Below are positions 1,570 to 34,146 of a stretch of 64,000 nt of DNA, in pieces. The position numbers were made by a program, and so were the translations under genes. Within the stretch, counting starts at the first letter, position 1, and the number at the start of each line of letters is the position of its first letter. Origin of the DNA: Thioclava electrotropha (lineage in GTDB: Bacteria > Pseudomonadota > Alphaproteobacteria > Rhodobacterales > Rhodobacteraceae); the NCBI RefSeq assembly GCF_002085925.2, contig NZ_CP053562.1:1964001-2028000 (forward strand), written 5' to 3'. A model generated the notes under the pieces. The model ran no database searches. It was not told where the DNA came from and saw nothing but the letters and a program-made list of their open reading frames with translations.

Positions 1570-2283
1570 GTGGAACAGCAGACAATTCTCGTCGTCGAAG
1601 ATGATCCTTGCGTACGCGGAGCGCTGCGGGACTGCCTTGAGGCGGAAGGCTGGGCGGTACGCGAGGCATCGGACGCCACTGGCATGATGCAAGAGATCGA
1701 AGCGGGCGACGTCGATCTCGTGACACTCGATCTGGGGCTGGGCGCGGATGACGGGCTCGCACTCGCCCGTGTCCTGCGCGGGCGCAGCAATATTCCCGTC
1801 ATCTTCATCACGGGGCAAGGGCAACCGCTCGACCGGGTGCGCGGTCTGGAGGCGGGGGCGGATGACTACATCGTCAAACCCTTCGCCGCGCGCGAGGTCG
1901 CGATCCGCATCCGTCGGGTGCTCGATGGCTATCGGACCCGCAACCTGCCGCGCGAGCGGCTGCGCATCGATCACAGCAGTATCGACCTGCGTCACGGCGT
2001 GATCGAGCATAATGACGGTCGCCGCGAGGATCTGACCGGAACGGAGGCGAAACTGCTCGAACTGTTCCTCAGCCGCCCGGAGCAGGTGCTCTCGCGCGAC
2101 GACATCAACCGGGTGCTGCACGGGCGCGACTGGTCGCCCTATGACCGGACCATCGACACCCATATCGCCCGGCTTCGACGCAAGATCGAACCGGCGGATG
2201 ATGCCAATCGGATGATCCGATCCGTACGCGGCGTGGGCTATGTCTTCACCGGCCAGATCACGGGGGAGGTCCCTCCGGCTTGA
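1570..2283 (+). CDS. OmpR/PhoB-family response regulator
   Basis: 237 residues. The receiver domain covers about residues 5-118, with acidic pocket E10/D11/D12, phosphoacceptor D54, a Thr near 81 and Lys103 in the VKPF motif. A winged-helix Trans_reg_C domain covers about 135-230 and ends with the usual RGVGYVF strand. The start is GTG behind an AGGAGG ribosome-binding site. The gene converges on the hybrid kinase gene and overlaps it by 26 bp, so the two are neighbours but not co-transcribed. An FNR-type box at 1441-1454 suggests oxygen-dependent expression. The target genes are unknown. Confidence 0.92.
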   Translation: MEQQTILVVEDDPCVRGALRDCLEAEGWAVREASDATGMMQEIEAGDVDLVTLDLGLGADDGLALARVLRGRSNIPVIFITGQGQPLDRVRGLEAGADDYIVKPFAAREVAIRIRRVLDGYRTRNLPRERLRIDHSSIDLRHGVIEHNDGRREDLTGTEAKLLELFLSRPEQVLSRDDINRVLHGRDWSPYDRTIDTHIARLRRKIEPADDANRMIRSVRGVGYVFTGQITGEVPPA

Positions 2284-4258
2284 GCGCACGCGCGACCGCC
2301 GCACTCAACGTCGAGAGAGAATAGGGCTTCGTGAGCAATTCCACCTCGCGTTCGGCTTCGGGGCGCCCGGAGAAATGCTCGGACGTATGGCCAGAGGTCA
2401 GAAGGACGGGCAATGCGGGATCGCGGGCGCGGGCGCGATCGACAAGGTCGAAGCCCGAAAAGGTGCCGGGCAGCACGACGTCGGAAAACAGTAGCTCGAC
2501 CGGCTCGCCCGCCTCGATCTGCTCCAGCGCCTCGGACGCGTTCGCGGCCTCGATCACCGCGTAGCCCAGAGCCTCCAGCCGGTCGAGAACCGCCTCGCGT
2601 ACGAGCGGATCGTCCTCGACCACCAGCACCAGCTGACCATCGCCCATTCGCAGCGCGTCGTGATGGTCGGCAGGCGCGGGCGTGGGCTCCCCCTCGGTCT
2701 CGGGCAGATAGAGCGTGATCGTGGTGCCTTTGTCGGGGGCGGTGTCGATGTGTAGAAACCCGCCCGCCCGCGCGACCGAACTCGCCACGCTGGTCAGACC
2801 GAGCCCGTTCCCGACATGCGCATCCTTGGTGGTGAAAAACGGATCGAGAGCCTGCCTGCGCACGTCCGGGGGCATGCCTTGCCCGGTATCGGTCACGCTC
2901 ACCGTGAGGAAGCAGCCCGGCCGCGCGCCGTCGATCTCGGCGGCCTGATGCGCGTCAAACCGCGCGCAGCCGGTCTGAATGGTGATCGTACCGGTGGCCG
3001 TCATCGCGTCGCGCGCATTGATGACGAGATTGAGCAGCGCGCCGTCCAACTCCCCGCGATCCATGTAGATCTGGCCATGATCGGCGCCGGGCAGGAGACG
3101 CAGATGCACCTGTTCGCCCAGCACCCGCTCTAGCAGCGTCCATGTCTCGGCGAGTTGCGCATCGAGGTCGAAGCACACCGGTTTCGGCGTCCGCGCTCCG
3201 GCAAGCGCCAGAAGCCGCTGATTGAACCCAGCGCCGATCTGCGTCGCGTCGATCGCGCGTTCCAGATGGTCACGCGCGATCTCGGCCATCTCGGCGCGCG
3301 AGGCAAGCTCCAGATTGGACAGGATGACGGTCAGCAAATTGTTGAAGTCATGTGCAATCAGGCCTGCCATTCGGCCCACGGTTTCCAGCCGCTGCGCCTG
3401 TACCAGCGCCTCCGATATCCGCGCGCGTTCCGTGCGATCGAGGATCGCGCCGACGACGCCCAGCGGACGGGGCGGATCGCAGGCCTCGTCGAACCGGATA
3501 TTGCCGCGCAACTCGATCACTTTGGGCTCGGCGCTATCGGCGAGCTTGAACTCGATCGAGAACTTTCGGCTGCCCGTCGGGTCCAGCGCCGCGCGATAGA
3601 CCGCGTCGAACTGCGCACGATCTTCCGGCGCGGCGAGGGCGAGCCATTTCTCGTAGCTGTCGGGCACCTCCTGCGTCTCCAGAAGCTGCCGGGCGGATCC
3701 GGTCGCGAGGAACGCATCGCGGTCGAAATCCACCTCGAACAGGGCGATCCCGGCGGCATCCATCGCCTCGGCGATCCGTTCCGCGCGCAGGGCGGTCGGC
3801 GGCTGTAGCTCCTTCCCGGCGCTGATATTCTCGATGATGAGGATGATCCCCGCGACGCCGCCGTCGCGGTGGATCGGTGCGGCAATCCAGCGGTTCCGGA
3901 TCACACGCCCATCGGGGAGCGTCGTCCGGGTCTCGTCGCATTGCACGACCTCTCCGGCGAGCGCTTTATCGCGCGCGGCGGGGTAGCCCTCTGGCAGCCA
4001 GGGCAGCAGGTCGCCGTCACCCGGTCCGCTCGCGCCGGAGAGATCGACGCCGTAGCTCTCCTGAAACGCCGCCGAGGTCGCAACCAGACGCGTTGCGGTG
4101 TCGAACACCGCGACCGGGATCGGCATCAGAGAGATCATGTCTCCCATACCATCGGCAAGCGCCGTGCGCGAGGCATGCGTCTTCGATCCGGTCTCTTCGC
4201 GTTTGGAATTTACCACTGGCGCCACCTCATTTCGCGCTTGGCACCACTCCCTGATCAC
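2258..4258 (-). CDS. Cytosolic PAS-domain hybrid histidine kinase with C-terminal receiver
   Basis: 666 residues from a GTG at 4258. An in-frame GTG about 15 codons further in has a better Shine-Dalgarno (GAGG) and may be the true start. Two PAS-like regions lie at about 40-145 and 160-280. The HisKA H-box has phosphoacceptor His303 in AHDFNNLLT. HATPase motifs are the N-box around Asn414, DTGQGM at about 457-462 and NGLGL at about 484. A receiver domain at about 543-660 has E548/D549/D550 and phosphoacceptor D593. No membrane segment is seen, so the sensor is probably cytoplasmic. The D593 receiver may act as a shuttle or phosphate sink. Pairing with the convergent response regulator is inferred from position only. 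Confidence 0.9.
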   Translation of the reverse strand: MIREWCQARNEVAPVVNSKREETGSKTHASRTALADGMGDMISLMPIPVAVFDTATRLVATSAAFQESYGVDLSGASGPGDGDLLPWLPEGYPAARDKALAGEVVQCDETRTTLPDGRVIRNRWIAAPIHRDGGVAGIILIIENISAGKELQPPTALRAERIAEAMDAAGIALFEVDFDRDAFLATGSARQLLETQEVPDSYEKWLALAAPEDRAQFDAVYRAALDPTGSRKFSIEFKLADSAEPKVIELRGNIRFDEACDPPRPLGVVGAILDRTERARISEALVQAQRLETVGRMAGLIAHDFNNLLTVILSNLELASRAEMAEIARDHLERAIDATQIGAGFNQRLLALAGARTPKPVCFDLDAQLAETWTLLERVLGEQVHLRLLPGADHGQIYMDRGELDGALLNLVINARDAMTATGTITIQTGCARFDAHQAAEIDGARPGCFLTVSVTDTGQGMPPDVRRQALDPFFTTKDAHVGNGLGLTSVASSVARAGGFLHIDTAPDKGTTITLYLPETEGEPTPAPADHHDALRMGDGQLVLVVEDDPLVREAVLDRLEALGYAVIEAANASEALEQIEAGEPVELLFSDVVLPGTFSGFDLVDRARARDPALPVLLTSGHTSEHFSGRPEAEREVELLTKPYSLSTLSAAVARALKPEGPPP

Positions 4259-5981: not shown

Positions 5982-6387
5982 TATCGTGGCGCGCTCACTG
6001 ATCTGCAGTGCGCCATCGGCGGAGTTTTGAAATGCGCATGAAAACGGCCCCGCCGGCCGAGCCTTGGGGACAGACGCGCGGTGGCCGGCGGGTTTCGCGA
6101 AAGGCTCTTCGAGCAGACTCGAACGGGTGAGGTAGCCCCAACCCTCCGCGAATATCCAAGTATACCCCCGCGCGGCGCGCGCGGCATTATTGGGCGTCAA
6201 TCGCAGCCATGACCGCGCAGGCTGCGGCCCTTCGTCAGGTTGCGCATCAGCGCTCGGGTTTCGGTCCGCGCTCCGACCCAGTTCAGTGCCTGAAGTGTGA
6301 AAAGACGTGTTGCCCCTCCGGGCGCCCTGCGTGGATTGGCAAAACCCCGCCCAGAGAGCGCACCGAACCGGGTCTGCGCGGTTTGCA

Positions 6388-6401
6388 TTGACGGCGGTCA
6401 A
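6388..6401. promoter_or_regulatory. FNR-type box upstream of small HTH-like gene
   Basis: TTGAC-GGCG-GTCAA is a symmetric match to TTGAY-N4-RTCAA. It is centred about 73 bases before the ATG at 6468, nearly the same geometry as the phasin box. Confidence 0.6.
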
Positions 6402-6467
6402 TGGCGCGGCGGGCCGGATGCGGTTTAGCTGAACGGGCCTCATAGCCAAGCTCGAAGGAGTGTGCGG

Positions 6468-6791
6468 ATGTTTCGTTGGATCACCCCAGAAAACAGCCCT
6501 GACCTTCTACCGCTGCCGCGTAAGCCACGGCAGGACAGCCGCGCGACGAAGACCATTCCCTGGCCTTTGTCGGGCGCGCGCGCTGAGAAAACGGGACCGG
6601 ATCGCGCGCTGGAAGTTTCGGCGCTGAGCGATCTCGGGCTCTCGACGCAGGAAATCGCGCGCTATCTCGGCCTCGCCCTGCAGGAGGTCGCCCGGCTGCA
6701 AGAGTCGGATCTCGACCTCGGCGCAAGCCTCGACAACAACATGACCCCGGTCTATCGCAGCCGTGCGGACGGGATGCGCCGCGTGGGCTGA
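6468..6791 (+). CDS. Small hypothetical protein with helix-turn-helix-like segment
   Basis: 107 residues. The ATG at 6468 is preferred over GTG at 6462 because AAGGAG ends only one base before the GTG but seven before the ATG. The N-terminal half is basic and Pro-rich. Residues about 50-80 (LSTQEIARYLGLALQEV) resemble a helix-turn-helix of the kind that reads 'the next level of a ladder' in small DNA-binding proteins. There is no membrane or signal sequence. The FNR-type box at 6388-6401 suggests anaerobic expression. The family is not recognised. Confidence 0.65.
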   Translation: MFRWITPENSPDLLPLPRKPRQDSRATKTIPWPLSGARAEKTGPDRALEVSALSDLGLSTQEIARYLGLALQEVARLQESDLDLGASLDNNMTPVYRSRADGMRRVG

Positions 6792-6807
6792 GCGGGCAGC
6801 TCTGCGA

Positions 6808-7776
6808 TCACCCGCGGGTCATTGTCACCGCCATCTGGCAGAGAATCTCGAACATCACCGAGACGCCGAGGAAAGCGGTCGCACCGGAGGCGTCGAAGGG
6901 CGGGGAGACCTCGACCAGATCGGCGCCGACGATGTTGACCCTGTCGAGCAGGCGGATCACCTGCAGCGCCTGATAGGAATTCGGGCCGCCCACTTCGGGT
7001 GTGCCGGTGCCGGGGGCGAAGGCCGGGTCGATGAAGTCGATATCGTAGGAGAGATAGGTGGGCTTGGTGCCGACGATCTCGCGCGCTTCCGCCATCACAT
7101 CCTCGACGCCGCGGGCATGGAACTCCTCGATCGGGATCACGCGCACGCCGACGCTATCGGCGAAATCGCGATCCTCGCTGTCATAGGTCGAGCCGCGAAT
7201 GCCGATCTGCACGACGCGTTTCGGGTCCAAGAGACTCTCTTCGATGGCGCGGCGGAAGGGCGTGCCGTGGGTGTACATATTGCCGCCGAAATAGCTGTGG
7301 AACAGGTCGGTATGGCTGTCGAAATGCACCATGCCGAGCGGCTCGGGCGTGCCCAGCGCGCGCAGGATCGGCAGCGAATTGAGGTGGTCGCCGCCTGCCG
7401 TGATCGGGCGGATGCCATGGGCGCGGACGGTCTCGAAGAACCGGGTGATCCGGTCCATCGCATCCTGAATGTCGGCGGGGTTCGGGGCCACGTCGCCGAG
7501 GTCGGCGCAGTTGACCATCTCGAAGGGGCGCACGCCGGTCGCACCGTTCTGCGCGCGGATCATCGTCGAGAGATCGCGCAGTTGGCGTGGCCCGTGGCGC
7601 GGGCCGGGACGGTTGGTGGTGCCGGAATCCCAGGGGCTGCCGATGAACCCGACCTGCACATCCTTCAGGCGCGGATTGTCGAGTTCGACATGCGGCAGGC
7701 GCATGAAGGTCGGCACGCCCGCGAAGCGCGGCAGATCGAAGCCGGAAACCGGGTGGAAAAAGGAATCGCTGGACAT
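6808..7776 (-). CDS. Ureohydrolase (agmatinase/arginase superfamily), specificity unknown
   Basis: 322 residues, full length for the family. Binuclear metal motifs are GGDH (128-131), DSHTD (153-157, usually DAHxD) and SYDIDFIDP (243-251), followed by the APGTGTP loop. These enzymes hydrolyse a guanidino group to urea and an amine. It is the last gene of the operon that starts with a TauA-like binding protein, 13 bases after an SDR gene. The catabolic context and divergence from the second ureohydrolase at 44229-45218 argue against assuming agmatine. Guanidinobutyrate, guanidinopropionate or a related compound is possible. Confidence 0.88.
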   Translation of the reverse strand: MSSDSFFHPVSGFDLPRFAGVPTFMRLPHVELDNPRLKDVQVGFIGSPWDSGTTNRPGPRHGPRQLRDLSTMIRAQNGATGVRPFEMVNCADLGDVAPNPADIQDAMDRITRFFETVRAHGIRPITAGGDHLNSLPILRALGTPEPLGMVHFDSHTDLFHSYFGGNMYTHGTPFRRAIEESLLDPKRVVQIGIRGSTYDSEDRDFADSVGVRVIPIEEFHARGVEDVMAEAREIVGTKPTYLSYDIDFIDPAFAPGTGTPEVGGPNSYQALQVIRLLDRVNIVGADLVEVSPPFDASGATAFLGVSVMFEILCQMAVTMTRG

Positions 7777-30114: not shown

Positions 30115-30142
30115 AAGCCCCGCGCAGTGCGCGGGGCTTTTT
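30115..30142 (+). terminator. Rho-independent terminator of the TRAP operon
   Basis: AGCCCCGCGC-AGT-GCGCGGGGCT, a 10-bp stem with a 3-base loop, followed by TTTTTT. Confidence 0.93.
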
Positions 30143-30363: not shown

Positions 30364-31239
30364 ATGCCGCAAACAGCGACGGCAAATATCCTGAACATCC
30401 TCGAATCCGATTTCTCCGGCGTCGTGGAGGAGTGGCTTGGCACTCAGGTGAAAGAGGGCGTGAAACGCTCTGACCTGTTCTCCGACTCCGAGAGCCGTGC
30501 GCAGAACCAGGAACTTCTGAAAGCCTTCACCAAGGGTGTCCGCGCGGGCGTCGTGAATGAAGAGTTCAGCCTGGACGACGACGAATGGGAAGACCTGCGC
30601 GCCGTCCTCGCCGATGTCAGCAAGGAACGCGTCGGCCGTGGCGTGACGCCGACCGAGATGGCGACCTTCGTGCTGGCCCTCAAAGCCCCGCTGTTCACAC
30701 GGCTCGAGGCGATGACGGATATCGAAAGCGGCAAGCTCATCAGTGACGTGCTGATGGTGACCCGTCTCGTCGACGCCTTCGCGATCTACACCAACGAGAT
30801 TTTCATCGGCGAGCGCGACCAGATCATAGAGCGCCAGCGTCAGGAAATGCTCGAACTGTCGACTCCGGTGGTCGAGCTCTGGGATCGCGTCCTCACGCTG
30901 CCGCTGATCGGCACGCTGGATTCCGCCCGCGCGCAGGAGGTCATGGAGAACCTGCTGGAGACCATCCTCGAGCGTCAGGCCGAGGTGGTGATCATGGACA
31001 TCACCGGTGTCGGCACGGTCGACACGCAGGTGGCGCAGCACCTTTTGCGGGCTGCGGCCGCCGTGCGCCTGATGGGTGCGGAATGCATCATCAGCGGCAT
31101 CAGCCCGATGATCGCGCAGACCATGGTGCAGCTCGGCATCGACGTGGGCACGGTCTCCACCCGGTCCAGCATCCGCACGGCTCTGGCCGATGCATTGCAG
31201 AAGGTCGGCTACGTCATCAAAACCAGCGAGGTTTCCTGA
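30364..31239 (+). CDS. rsbR: Stressosome scaffold/sensor protein, RsbR-type (RsbRD-like N-domain + STAS)
   Basis: 291 residues from the ATG at 30364. The N-terminal 160 residues are helical, as in RsbRD-type sensors, with no haem- or flavin-domain motif. The C-terminal STAS domain (about 165-285) has PLIGTLDSARAQ and MDITGVGTVDTQVA. By alignment from memory, B. subtilis RsbRA phosphosites T171 and T205 correspond to Ser187 and Thr221 here. RsbR and RsbS build the stressosome that sequesters RsbT until stress. First gene of a five-gene overlapping operon. The signal it senses is unknown. Confidence 0.9.
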   Translation: MPQTATANILNILESDFSGVVEEWLGTQVKEGVKRSDLFSDSESRAQNQELLKAFTKGVRAGVVNEEFSLDDDEWEDLRAVLADVSKERVGRGVTPTEMATFVLALKAPLFTRLEAMTDIESGKLISDVLMVTRLVDAFAIYTNEIFIGERDQIIERQRQEMLELSTPVVELWDRVLTLPLIGTLDSARAQEVMENLLETILERQAEVVIMDITGVGTVDTQVAQHLLRAAAAVRLMGAECIISGISPMIAQTMVQLGIDVGTVSTRSSIRTALADALQKVGYVIKTSEVS

Positions 31240-31240
31240 C

Positions 31241-31594
31241 GTGTCGGGTGTGACGTCCATAAACCTGGTCGAGAACGCGCTTCTCGTCTCCATTCAGGAC
31301 GACGTCACCGATACGGAAATCGTTGAGCTGCAGGACACGCTGTCGAACCGGATCGCGAAGGAAAACGTCAAAGGCGTGATCCTCGACATCAGTTCGCTGG
31401 AGATCGTCGACACCTTCGTCGGCCGCGTCATTGCCCAGCTCGCTGGCATTTCCAAGCTGCTGGCCGCTGAAACCTACGTTGTGGGGATGCGGCCCGCGGT
31501 TGCGGTGACCTTGGTGGAACTGGGAATGTATCTGCCCGAGACCCGTACGGCGCTCAGCCTGACCCATGCACTCACTCAGTTGCGGCGTGCCTGA
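31241..31594 (+). CDS. rsbS: Stressosome core protein, RsbS-type single STAS domain
   Basis: 117 residues from a GTG one base after the rsbR stop. It is a lone STAS domain with GVILDISSLEIVDTF and RPAVAVTLVELGM, close to the corresponding RsbS segments. The RsbS phosphoserine S59 lies in IDSF; here the position is Thr58 in VDTF. Threonine can also be phosphorylated, so the switch is probably kept. It overlaps rsbT by 29 bp. Confidence 0.92.
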   Translation: MSGVTSINLVENALLVSIQDDVTDTEIVELQDTLSNRIAKENVKGVILDISSLEIVDTFVGRVIAQLAGISKLLAAETYVVGMRPAVAVTLVELGMYLPETRTALSLTHALTQLRRA

Positions 31595-32006
31595 TCCAAA
31601 CGAAACATCCAGCAGACCCGCGGTTGCGGAGATAACGCTCGCGACCAGTCGCGATGTCGTCGCCGCGCGCCAGGCGGTCGCCCGAATTCTCAAGGAACGC
31701 GGGTTGTCGGCGGTGCGGATCACCCGGTTCGCGACGGCTGTGAGCGAAATCACCCGCAACGCCATCGTCCACGGTGGCGGCGGCAAGATTTCAATTTATC
31801 TCGACGGTCGTAACGAGTATCTGCGCGTCGAATGCCGGGACCAGGGACCGGGGATCGAAAATGTGACGCTGGCCATGTCCGAGGGCTATACGACCGCGGG
31901 CGGGCTCGGCAAAGGTCTTGGCGGGGCCAAACGCCTCTCACATGGGTTCGAGGTCCACTCAGCGCCCGGGAAAGGAACAACCGTTTCCATGAGCGTGAAG
32001 CTATGA
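31566..32006 (+). CDS. rsbT: Stressosome switch kinase, RsbT-type
   Basis: 146 residues from the ATG at 31566, inside the end of rsbS. It has a GHKL ATPase fold: N-box SEITRNAIVHG near 66-76, G1 DQGPGI near 98, and a glycine lid GGLGKGLGG. RsbT phosphorylates RsbS and RsbR, leaves the complex and activates a downstream partner. In Bacillus the partner is the phosphatase RsbU; no RsbU is visible here. It overlaps the next gene as ATGA. Confidence 0.92.
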   Translation: MHSLSCGVPDPNETSSRPAVAEITLATSRDVVAARQAVARILKERGLSAVRITRFATAVSEITRNAIVHGGGGKISIYLDGRNEYLRVECRDQGPGIENVTLAMSEGYTTAGGLGKGLGGAKRLSHGFEVHSAPGKGTTVSMSVKL

Positions 32007-33013
32007 ACCAATGGGTCGAAATTGATGATCGCAGCGCCGTGGCCGTCGTGCGGCGGCTTGCGCGACGTCATGGCGTCGAGATCGGTCTTCCCGAGACACG
32101 CGTCGGCGAACTCGCGATCGTGGCCACGGAGGCCGCGACGAACATCCTGCGTTACGCGGAGCGCGGTCGCGCCCTGATCGAACTCGTGCGGCAGCCCGGC
32201 GCCGATGTCATCAACATGATCTTCACCGATCGCGGGCCGGGGATCGCGGATATCGACCGGATGTTCCAGGACGGCGAAAGCTCCACCGACTCCGCAGGGC
32301 TCGGGCTCGGGGCGATCGTGCGCCTGTCGGATACGTTCGACATCTTCAGCTCGCCCGACACCGGAACGACCATCGTGTGCACCTTCGGCGGGCGACGCGA
32401 CGGGGCTGATTGCGGCGTCGACGCGGTGGGGCTGCGCGTGTGCCACCCGAACGAAGACACCTGCGGCGATGATTTTCAGATCCGGCAGACCCCGCGGGCA
32501 ACCGATGTGTTGCTCTGCGACGGGCTCGGGCATGGTCCTGCCGCCGCCGAAGCCGCCAGCGAGGTCATCGAGGCCGCGGGCGCTGCGGGCGGTCTGTCGT
32601 CCGAGCCGGGCAAGCTGATGCGCCAGATTACCGAGCGGCTGGTCGGTCGGCGCGGCGCGGTGGCCGCGCTGATGCATATCGCCCAGCCGCAGATGGAGCT
32701 GCGCTACGCGGCGCTTGGCAATATCTCCTCCTTGCTGGTCGGCGCGAATGGCATTCGCCGAATGGCGGTACGGGACGGCCGCATCGGTGGCGCGGCGACC
32801 CATGGCTATGAGGAAGTCGTGCAACTGGAGGCGGGGGACATGGTGATCCTGCATAGCGACGGTTTGAAAACCCTGCGGGAGGCGCATTTCCCGCCCGGAC
32901 TGCTGAAGAAAAGCCCGCTCTTGATTGCCGGATTTCTTCTGGATCGGGCCTTCCGCGGACGCGATGACGCCAGCATCGTCGTCTTGCGCATCAACCGGGA
33001 GCGCGAGCAGTGA
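32003..33013 (+). CDS. Fused RsbT-like ATPase and PP2C-type phosphatase (RsbX/SpoIIE-like)
   Basis: 336 residues from the ATG at 32003. The N-terminal GHKL ATPase (about 1-130) has ATEAATNILRYAERG, DRGPGIADI and GLGLGAI. The C-terminal PP2C domain (about 150-335) has CDGLGHGPAA, LEAGDMVILHSDGL and RDDASIVVL with the metal-binding aspartates. In Bacillus, RsbX dephosphorylates RsbR and RsbS to reset the stressosome. A kinase-like and a phosphatase domain on one chain suggests both set and reset functions, or antagonist binding by the ATPase part. Coupled to both neighbours by overlaps. Confidence 0.9.
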   Translation: MNQWVEIDDRSAVAVVRRLARRHGVEIGLPETRVGELAIVATEAATNILRYAERGRALIELVRQPGADVINMIFTDRGPGIADIDRMFQDGESSTDSAGLGLGAIVRLSDTFDIFSSPDTGTTIVCTFGGRRDGADCGVDAVGLRVCHPNEDTCGDDFQIRQTPRATDVLLCDGLGHGPAAAEAASEVIEAAGAAGGLSSEPGKLMRQITERLVGRRGAVAALMHIAQPQMELRYAALGNISSLLVGANGIRRMAVRDGRIGGAATHGYEEVVQLEAGDMVILHSDGLKTLREAHFPPGLLKKSPLLIAGFLLDRAFRGRDDASIVVLRINREREQ

Positions 33014-34146
33014 AAACGACGAAGCTCACCACCGTGACCCTTGAAAAAAGCACCGACGTCGCCCGGTTGCGCGATGTCGCGATGACATTGACCAGCGTGC
33101 TGCAGTTCAGCTCCTTCGAGCGCACAAGGACCGTCACAGCCGTCGTCGAACTCGGGCGCAACGCGATCGAGCATGGCCAGAAAGGCCGCGCGACCTTCTC
33201 GCTCACCGAGGCGGGGGGCAAACCGGCGCTCGGTCTTCTCGTGACCGATCAGGGTCGGGGCATCCCGAAGGAGAACCTTCAGCCCGATGGCGCGCCCTCC
33301 TCGGCGACGGGGATGGGCCTCGGCCTTCGCGGCGTACAGCGGATCGCCACGCGTTTCGATGTCCAGACCGGCCATGAGGGCACGCGCATCGATGCGGTTT
33401 TCCTGTCTTCGACCGTTCTGCCGGCGGGTGCCCAACTCGTCGACCAGGCGACCGAGGCGCTCGACGCCCTCAGCGCCAAGGATCCGACGGCGGCCCTTAA
33501 CGAGCAGAACCGCGAGCTGAGCGAGGAAATCACGGAACGCGACCTGCTGATGCAGGAGCTTCATCACCGCACGGGCAACAATCTGGCGCTCATTGCCGCG
33601 CTCATTCGCATGAGCAAGTCGCGGGCCAAACAGGATGAAACCCAACAGGTTCTGACCGAGCTCGAAGTCCGCGTCGGGGCGCTCTCCAAGGCCCACGAGC
33701 TGATGCAACGCGGAACCGACACCGGTAAGGTCGATCTGGCGGAGATGGCGGCGGAAGTCGCAAGGACGTCGGAGCGCGCCTTCAGCGGCGGAAGCCTCGA
33801 CGCCAATATCGAGGTGAGCTGCGCAGAGCTGCAACTCGACAGCAAGCTTGCGATCGACATCGGGCTCATCATCGGCGAACTCATTACCAATGCGTTCAAA
33901 TATGCTTTTGTCGGCAGGGATAGCGGGACCATCCGCGTCGATGTCTCCGGCGATGTGCACAGCGGTATCGCCTTGGTGGTGTCCGATAACGGCATCGGCT
34001 TGCCCTCGGATGCCGAGCGGCCGGAGCGGTCGAATTCTCTGGGTTGGCGATTGATCCGAACGCTGACCTTCCAGCACGACGCCACCCTGACCGTGGACGG
34101 TACGGATGGGCTGCGCGTGTGCATCGAGTTCCCCGCGCAGGCCTGA
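33010..34146 (+). CDS. Fusion of RsbT-like ATPase with HisKA_2-type histidine kinase
   Basis: 378 residues from a GTG that overlaps the previous stop. The first GHKL domain (about 1-135) has VELGRNAIEHGQ, DQGRGIP and MGLGLRGV, like RsbT. A short coiled coil (about 145-180) follows. The HisKA_2 phosphoacceptor is in QELHHRTGNNLALI (about 181-194). A second ATPase domain has GELITNAFKYAF and DNGIGLP. There is no sensor domain and no membrane segment. In alphaproteobacteria HisKA_2/HWE kinases often feed the PhyR general stress response. It is likely the stressosome output; no response regulator is encoded nearby. Confidence 0.9.
   Translation: MKTTKLTTVTLEKSTDVARLRDVAMTLTSVLQFSSFERTRTVTAVVELGRNAIEHGQKGRATFSLTEAGGKPALGLLVTDQGRGIPKENLQPDGAPSSATGMGLGLRGVQRIATRFDVQTGHEGTRIDAVFLSSTVLPAGAQLVDQATEALDALSAKDPTAALNEQNRELSEEITERDLLMQELHHRTGNNLALIAALIRMSKSRAKQDETQQVLTELEVRVGALSKAHELMQRGTDTGKVDLAEMAAEVARTSERAFSGGSLDANIEVSCAELQLDSKLAIDIGLIIGELITNAFKYAFVGRDSGTIRVDVSGDVHSGIALVVSDNGIGLPSDAERPERSNSLGWRLIRTLTFQHDATLTVDGTDGLRVCIEFPAQA

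Follow-up and report, generated by a model that had tools for sequence, protein, structure and literature searches.

Passages of PMC9237108 describe stressosome modules of the RSTX type across Proteobacteria and name 'Dogia' and Ruegeria as cases with a HisKA/REC phosphorelay; a two-component output of stressosomes is already proposed there and in parts of PMC12143880. The targets of stressosomes in Gram-negative bacteria are unsettled, and for Vibrio brasiliensis the partner downstream of RsbT is given as unknown in the relevant part of PMC4976288. HWE/HisKA2 kinases are treated in passages of PMC12148442 as the general-stress kinases of Alphaproteobacteria. The DNA considered here is a 64-kb window from Thioclava electrotropha (GCF_002085925.2, NZ_CP053562.1 positions 1,964,001-2,028,000), in which five tightly packed genes on the plus strand (30364-34146; Table 1) encode RsbR, RsbS, RsbT, an ATPase-PP2C fusion and, as fifth product, a HisKA_2 histidine kinase that carries an RsbT-like domain of its own. 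This stressosome very probably feeds a phosphorelay, because related operons put HisKA kinases with receivers on the same N-terminal domain. The best explanation of the whole, which we rate only just short of an even chance, is that the alphaproteobacterial stressosome signals through a histidine kinase to PhyR and not through a sigma-factor partner switch.

The nearest described arrangement, RsbRSTX-D1-D2 of Vibrio vulnificus, has the same rsbR-S-T-X order, likewise lacks RsbU, RsbV, RsbW and a sigma factor, and has a proposed kinase or phosphorelay output (part of PMC9237108). The modules in that part of the paper have a globin-coupled RsbR and a single-domain RsbX, whereas here RsbR carries RsbRD_N, an RsbT-like ATPase is joined to RsbX, and a single HisKA_2 kinase, with an RsbT-like domain attached and no receiver, is the output; the passages of its section on RSTX two-component outputs mention neither HisKA_2 nor PhyR. 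An earlier note on this DNA states that Vibrio stressosome operons with two-component genes are known in a different layout. The histidine kinases of stressosome operons described in parts of PMC12143880 also place a kinase under an N-terminal Rsb-related domain, but that domain, RsbU_N, is a helical domain that binds RsbT, while the N-terminal domain here is itself RsbT-like. The Bacillus SigB operon has the RsbR, RsbS and RsbT core in common with this locus but continues into an RsbU/V/W/SigB cascade that is absent here. The kinases of the PhyR-NepR-EcfG system resemble the fifth protein in their HisKA_2/HWE half, with EL346 as nearest solved structure, and in the presence of PhyR in the carriers searched; they differ from it in their input domain, which is RsbT-like here, and in gene setting, which here is a stressosome operon. 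The earlier note took the two systems to be normally found in different phyla, a view that does not hold, as RSTX modules span Proteobacteria (PMC9237108, in part) and the genome of the window contains both. No link between stressosome and PhyR was found in the published literature as covered by titles, abstract openings and passages, with subscription papers mostly outside that coverage; publications naming both treat them separately in the passages concerned, and none was found on Skermanella together with the stressosome. An earlier description may exist, since the subscription literature lay mostly outside the search.

The fifth protein matches HATPase_c_2 (5.4e-21, in two stretches), HisKA_2 (6.8e-15), HWE_HK (1.2e-9) and HATPase_c; every Pfam match given here with an E-value for the five proteins exceeds the Pfam cut-off. 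Among 34 aligned kinases, H186, R187, N190, N191, E290, N294, D326, G328 and G330 of the kinase half are invariant, as are E47, N51, D80, G82 and G84 of the RsbT-like half; over 36 rows of the N-terminal domain the latter stand at 100%, 97%, 100%, 97% and 100%. Catalytic motifs are conserved in the three RsbT-like domains of the operon and in the kinase. HWE kinases are defined in part of PMC12148442 by an H-box, an Arg box and a Glu replacing the first Asn of the N-box. The phosphoacceptor domain is present here, and H186, R221 and E290 are invariant in 34 of 34; H186 is probably the phospho-acceptor, and by our own assignment R221 would be the Arg box and E290 the N-box Glu. Among solved kinases, EL346 of Erythrobacter litoralis comes closest (7.5e-36 by sequence, 8.2e-14 by fold). 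In the AlphaFold model (pLDDT 80.9, pTM 0.48, domain placement unsure) helices 140-156 and 159-205 connect the N-terminal domain and the kinase. By Pfam this kinase lacks the docking domain RsbU_N, so its own RsbT-like domain is a likelier input than released RsbT.

For comparison, loci from other genomes were taken with RsbT or the fused phosphatase as anchor, and across them the fifth gene varies between operons. An RsbT-like domain is joined to HisKA by Pfam in three loci (L238, L240 and L326) and in ten of ten further proteins, all of which carry one or two receivers with the exception of that of L334. HisKA kinases in which Pfam finds no RsbT-like domain occur in L237 and in nine of nine other loci. 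Locus L242 combines a single-domain RsbX with an RsbU_N-HisKA-receiver kinase, L245 has a PAS hybrid, and the remaining loci reach a contig end or have no kinase that could be seen downstream. The RsbT-like-HisKA form is found in Deinococcus and several Proteobacteria. The operon of Deinococcus radiodurans MP1 (L326, 3275-9079, DR_RS15570-15595), for example, is an RSTX operon with an RsbT-like-HisKA-receiver kinase and a receiver-kinase partner; as it matched both halves of the query it was considered as a HisKA_2 case outside Alphaproteobacteria, yet it proved to be HisKA plus receiver. A phylum survey matched the fused phosphatase in 23 of 398 genomes, and 20 loci were fetched besides two already known, one genome (G801) being left out. 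Seventeen of the 20 lie outside Alphaproteobacteria; a HisKA kinase stands downstream in 13 of these by Pfam, and HisKA_2 as fifth gene in none of the 17. Every HisKA_2-type fifth gene among the loci looked at is alphaproteobacterial. Separately, locus L240 has a receiver-HisKA_2 protein (6083-7132, minus strand) after its RsbT-like-HisKA hybrid, so that both kinase families stand in one stressosome operon.

Phylogenetic analysis of the RsbT-like domains drew on a selection of 45 fetched loci and kept 124 of 125 domains, a short row being left out. A branch separates each of three groups, RsbT (44 rows), the RsbX-position domains (44) and the kinase N-terminal domains (36), from the rest, with supports of 90, 100 and only 50, so that the ATPase domains of the fused phosphatases form their own lineage; the kinase N-terminal group mixes HisKA and HisKA_2 members. 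By domain comparison, kinases of different types have been attached to a related N-terminal domain, which is the main evidence for that domain as input and for phosphotransfer as output. The tree of the kinase halves kept 130 of 135 rows after removal of three long-branch rows and of two that duplicated stressosome rows, and on it a single clade of the HisKA_2 halves is not rejected (approximately unbiased test, p-AU 0.894), so the kinases of Skermanella and the window are probably orthologous. Independent recruitment of HisKA_2 in several lineages is unsupported on the same ground. On the tree of the N-terminal domains a single HisKA_2 origin is not rejected (p-AU 0.304), while the free tree needs three changes.

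The connection to PhyR comes from Skermanella. A flank scan of 33 HisKA_2-type loci, that of the window included, covered about 5 kb upstream (0.6 kb at the shortest) and mostly 8 kb downstream, and found phyR directly before rsbR in two, L085 (Skermanella stibiiresistens) and L234, both from this genus. A kinase search of 81 genomes of the S. stibiiresistens family recovered the full-length kinase in five genomes of the Skermanella genus code (g407), and all five have the HisKA_2-type order phyR-rsbR-rsbS-rsbT-X-kinase, phyR and rsbR being on the same strand 15-16 nt apart. No PhyR was seen beside the operon in L332 and L333, which belong to the same family and have HisKA hybrids. The identity of the operon PhyR was confirmed by Pfam and NCBIfam, the two tested scoring 310 and 309 bits against the NF006623.1 cut-off of 240. 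The five operon PhyRs group with those of other carriers, the nearest being the only PhyR of genome G271 (93/87), and are set apart (100/100) from two divergent Skermanella paralogues that score 266.7 and 234.9 bits against the same cut-off. Two such very divergent paralogues occur in each of two Skermanella-code genomes (loci L366, L367, L369 and L370), away from the operon. PhyR is encoded in all 36 carrier genomes searched, a count without a background rate; the search profile combined three PhyR sequences, one being that of L085 and the other two belonging to genomes within the searched set.

In the proposed mechanism, RsbR and RsbS would, by homology, form a STAS scaffold that RsbT phosphorylates. 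The RsbT-like domain of the fifth protein would dock on the same scaffold as RsbT, and the histidine kinase would be held or released together with it. The HisKA_2 half would then autophosphorylate and pass its phosphate to PhyR, a step suggested because phyR stands before rsbR in Skermanella; PhyR would draw NepR off EcfG, and the general stress response would start. The ATPase-PP2C protein would reset the scaffold, with its RsbT-like domain aiming the phosphatase. The order in which RsbT, the phosphatase and the kinase N-terminal domain would act is inferred. PhyR is likely the target of the Skermanella kinase, and the chance is about even for the lineage of the window, where the residues beside the phospho-histidine differ. 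The more specific proposal, in which the stressosome acts as a sensor directly upstream of the general stress response, RsbR and RsbS gate the phosphate to PhyR, and a canonical phyR has joined the operon in Skermanella, is put forward tentatively, at somewhat under even; the same tentative standing is given to its companion, that other bacteria use this N-terminal domain as a plug-in module to which different kinases are attached. The bridge from stressosome to phosphorelay suggested in the earlier note is supported by operon comparison as regards a phosphorelay output, and as regards PhyR it leaves a plausible target, placed before rsbR in five of five Skermanella genomes. Should this hold, stressosome and PhyR cascade, usually studied apart, would be one pathway in these bacteria. 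The operon type gives the Gram-negative stressosome an output protein with its own RsbT-like domain, and as Skermanella encodes PhyR, a known target of this kinase family, directly before rsbR, the question can be tested with purified proteins and in the laboratory strain Phaeobacter inhibens DSM 17395.

Several observations weigh against PhyR as the common target. Adjacency is limited to one genus, with no phyR beside the operon outside Skermanella in the flank-scanned loci. In the genome of the window, PhyR, NepR and EcfG are clustered about 2.1 Mb from the operon, and that locus has its own HisKA_2 kinase. The neighbours of the phospho-histidine read HHRTGNNLA in the window, YHRVKNNLQ in Skermanella and HHRVKNNLQ in the window's PhyK, so partner choice of the kinase may have shifted between lineages; the same genome has 44 receiver matches (42 above the Pfam cut-off). 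The kinase N-terminal grouping is weakly supported (50). On the supporting side, NepR occurs in 27 of 28 named carriers versus 65 of the 149 genomes of the window's family, and in all five carriers within that sample (chance 0.014, kinship ignored). It is found in 66 of 385 genomes of the class survey overall and in 10 of the 16 that bear RsbT, made up of three of the four shown to be HisKA_2-type and seven of the other 12. Because seven of these 10 are not shown to be of the HisKA_2 type, the co-occurrence is non-specific and may only mark large free-living genomes. An obligate link to NepR was rejected, as Pacificimonas flava lacks NepR by Pfam yet has PhyR, and G271 likewise. In G522, one of the Skermanella-code genomes, 14 kb around the NepR match hold an ECF (extracytoplasmic function) sigma gene, and no PhyR was found there. 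The EcfG consensus GGAAC-N15-18-[CG]GTT was found in none of 37 upstream regions (32 of rsbR and five of phyR, with L085 contributing to each set; some rsbR genes, L077 above all, are annotated with starts too far upstream), with an average of 0.66 in shuffles. Around NepR the control gave 4 of 29 on the given strand and 10 of 29 on the other, which makes the test only moderately sensitive, and EcfG-dependent expression of the operon was rejected on this basis.

In a rival explanation the stressosome does control the kinase but the Rhodobacterales kinase targets another receiver, single-domain or outside stress signaling, PhyR being used by the Skermanella branch only. HWE kinases feed the single-domain regulator MrrA. 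That MrrA acts in the stress response of Caulobacter (part of PMC5964349) agrees with this explanation, as do the differing residues beside the phospho-histidine, the 44 receiver matches and the lack of any recurrent receiver gene next to the operon: of 36 loci, just four (L072, L069, L096 and L331) have one in their flanks, Skermanella phyR aside. We nevertheless consider it rather unlikely, as PhyR is kept in all 36 carriers searched and the kinase halves fit one clade, a branch of which adjoins phyR. Two of these flanks may be described for their own sake: Notoacmeibacter (L096, 140-3222) has two receiver-GGDEF proteins and another receiver open reading frame (ORF) upstream of its stressosome operon, and Tranquillimonas (L069, 691-1068, plus strand) a single-domain receiver ORF about 4.3 kb upstream.

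Other explanations concern the fifth protein itself. Released RsbT might bind the kinase as it binds RsbU, in which case the RsbT-like domain would be a receptor for RsbT or another regulator and not a means of docking on the scaffold. RsbT is known to activate RsbU through its N-terminal domain and linker (passages of PMC12143880), the modelled long helix 159-205 runs into the kinase, and a separate RsbT gene is retained in all 28 full-length named relatives among the matches listed. The kinase of the window, however, lacks RsbU_N by Pfam, the RsbU_N-HisKA kinase being that of L242 with its single-domain RsbX, and its N-terminal domain retains catalytic and nucleotide residues that a mere receptor should not need; this explanation is therefore judged unlikely. 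That the histidine kinase half is vestigial, leaving the fusion to act on the STAS scaffold only as another serine/threonine kinase, is highly improbable: the G2 box, SLGW, looks atypical in our reading, but the nine kinase-half residues listed above are invariant in 34 of 34, and related operons have other kinases with receivers. Docking of the RsbT-like domain on the scaffold, with PhyR as receiver, remains the preferred explanation.

Table 1. Operon genes and a flanking hairpin in the window
Feature	Position	Strand	Evidence
RsbR scaffold/sensor, RsbRD_N + STAS, 291 aa	30364..31239	+	Pfam, PDB sequence matches
RsbS STAS scaffold, 117 aa, GTG start	31241..31594	+	Pfam, 6jhk and 6qcm chain alignments
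RsbT switch kinase, 139 aa, GTG start, GHKL motifs intact	31587..32006	+	Pfam, conservation table
RsbX-position RsbT-like ATPase + SpoIIE-type PP2C phosphatase, 336 aa	32003..33013	+	Pfam, tree of RsbT-like domains
RsbT-like ATPase, long helix, HisKA_2/HWE kinase, 378 aa, GTG start	33010..34146	+	Pfam, alignment, AlphaFold, EL346 matches
Terminator-like hairpin between TRAP transporter genes and operon	30115..30139	+	hairpin scan

The five-gene layout and the gene descriptions in the earlier note agree with the ORFs and Pfam domains found. Successive junctions are +1, -8, -4 and -4 nt. RsbR matches RsbRD_N (3.5e-18) and STAS (6.9e-16), RsbS matches STAS (1.7e-9), RsbT matches HATPase_c_2 (5.5e-14), and the fourth protein matches HATPase_c_2 (1.9e-13) and SpoIIE (1.5e-10). 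In PDB sequence searches RsbR and RsbS match solved stressosome chains (7o0i_B, 7.9e-37, and 6jhk_A, 1.4e-21), and the matches of RsbT are anti-sigma F factors. RsbR has Thr in LIGT and VDT, and RsbS has a Thr, in VDTF, where two solved RsbS chains (6jhk, 6qcm) have the Ser of an IDSF motif; we take these Thr residues to be the phospho-sites. The locus thus has the adjacent RsbR and RsbS STAS genes, the GHKL kinase RsbT and the putative Thr sites of a stressosome. As in RSTX modules with two-component output, a PP2C gene directly follows RsbT and a signaling protein comes next, though this PP2C, fused to an RsbT-like ATPase, is not a single-domain RsbX. RsbU, RsbV, RsbW and sigma genes are absent from the operon by Pfam and window queries, as the earlier note had it, so a partner switch of the SigB type is not encoded there. 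No sigma-70-type promoter upstream of the operon passed the scan, and the hairpin is weak by itself (3 sites versus 2.7 expected in shuffles). Queries for stressosome, EcfG, NepR, PhyR, receiver and HisKA proteins found only two receiver-bearing ORFs in the rest of the window (1570-2283, plus strand, and 2258-4258, minus strand), distant from the operon and with no link to it seen.

The distribution of the operon was examined with the kinase as query. At a threshold of 1e-20 it matched 18 of 149 genomes of the window's family. In five, counting the genome of the window, the match spans both halves, and in each of the other four RsbS, RsbT and the phosphatase gene adjoin the kinase. A scan of named genomes took in 80 loci among the matches listed, with search patterns that favour close relatives, and 28 were full-length: Rhodobacterales, Sphingomonadales, the Aurantimonas/Flavimaribacter/Notoacmeibacter group and Skermanella. 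The contiguous order RsbR-RsbS-RsbT-ATPase-PP2C-kinase is kept in all 28, so the layout is not due to chance; the remaining 52 loci, of which some are short, yielded no stressosome domain. Few genomes of the class match RsbT at 1e-12 (16 of 385). Among plasmids of Phaeobacter, 58 records match the kinase; both records inspected hold all five genes, and one of the two is pPGA1_262 of the laboratory strain P. inhibens DSM 17395 (L335, genes PGA1_RS18475-18495).

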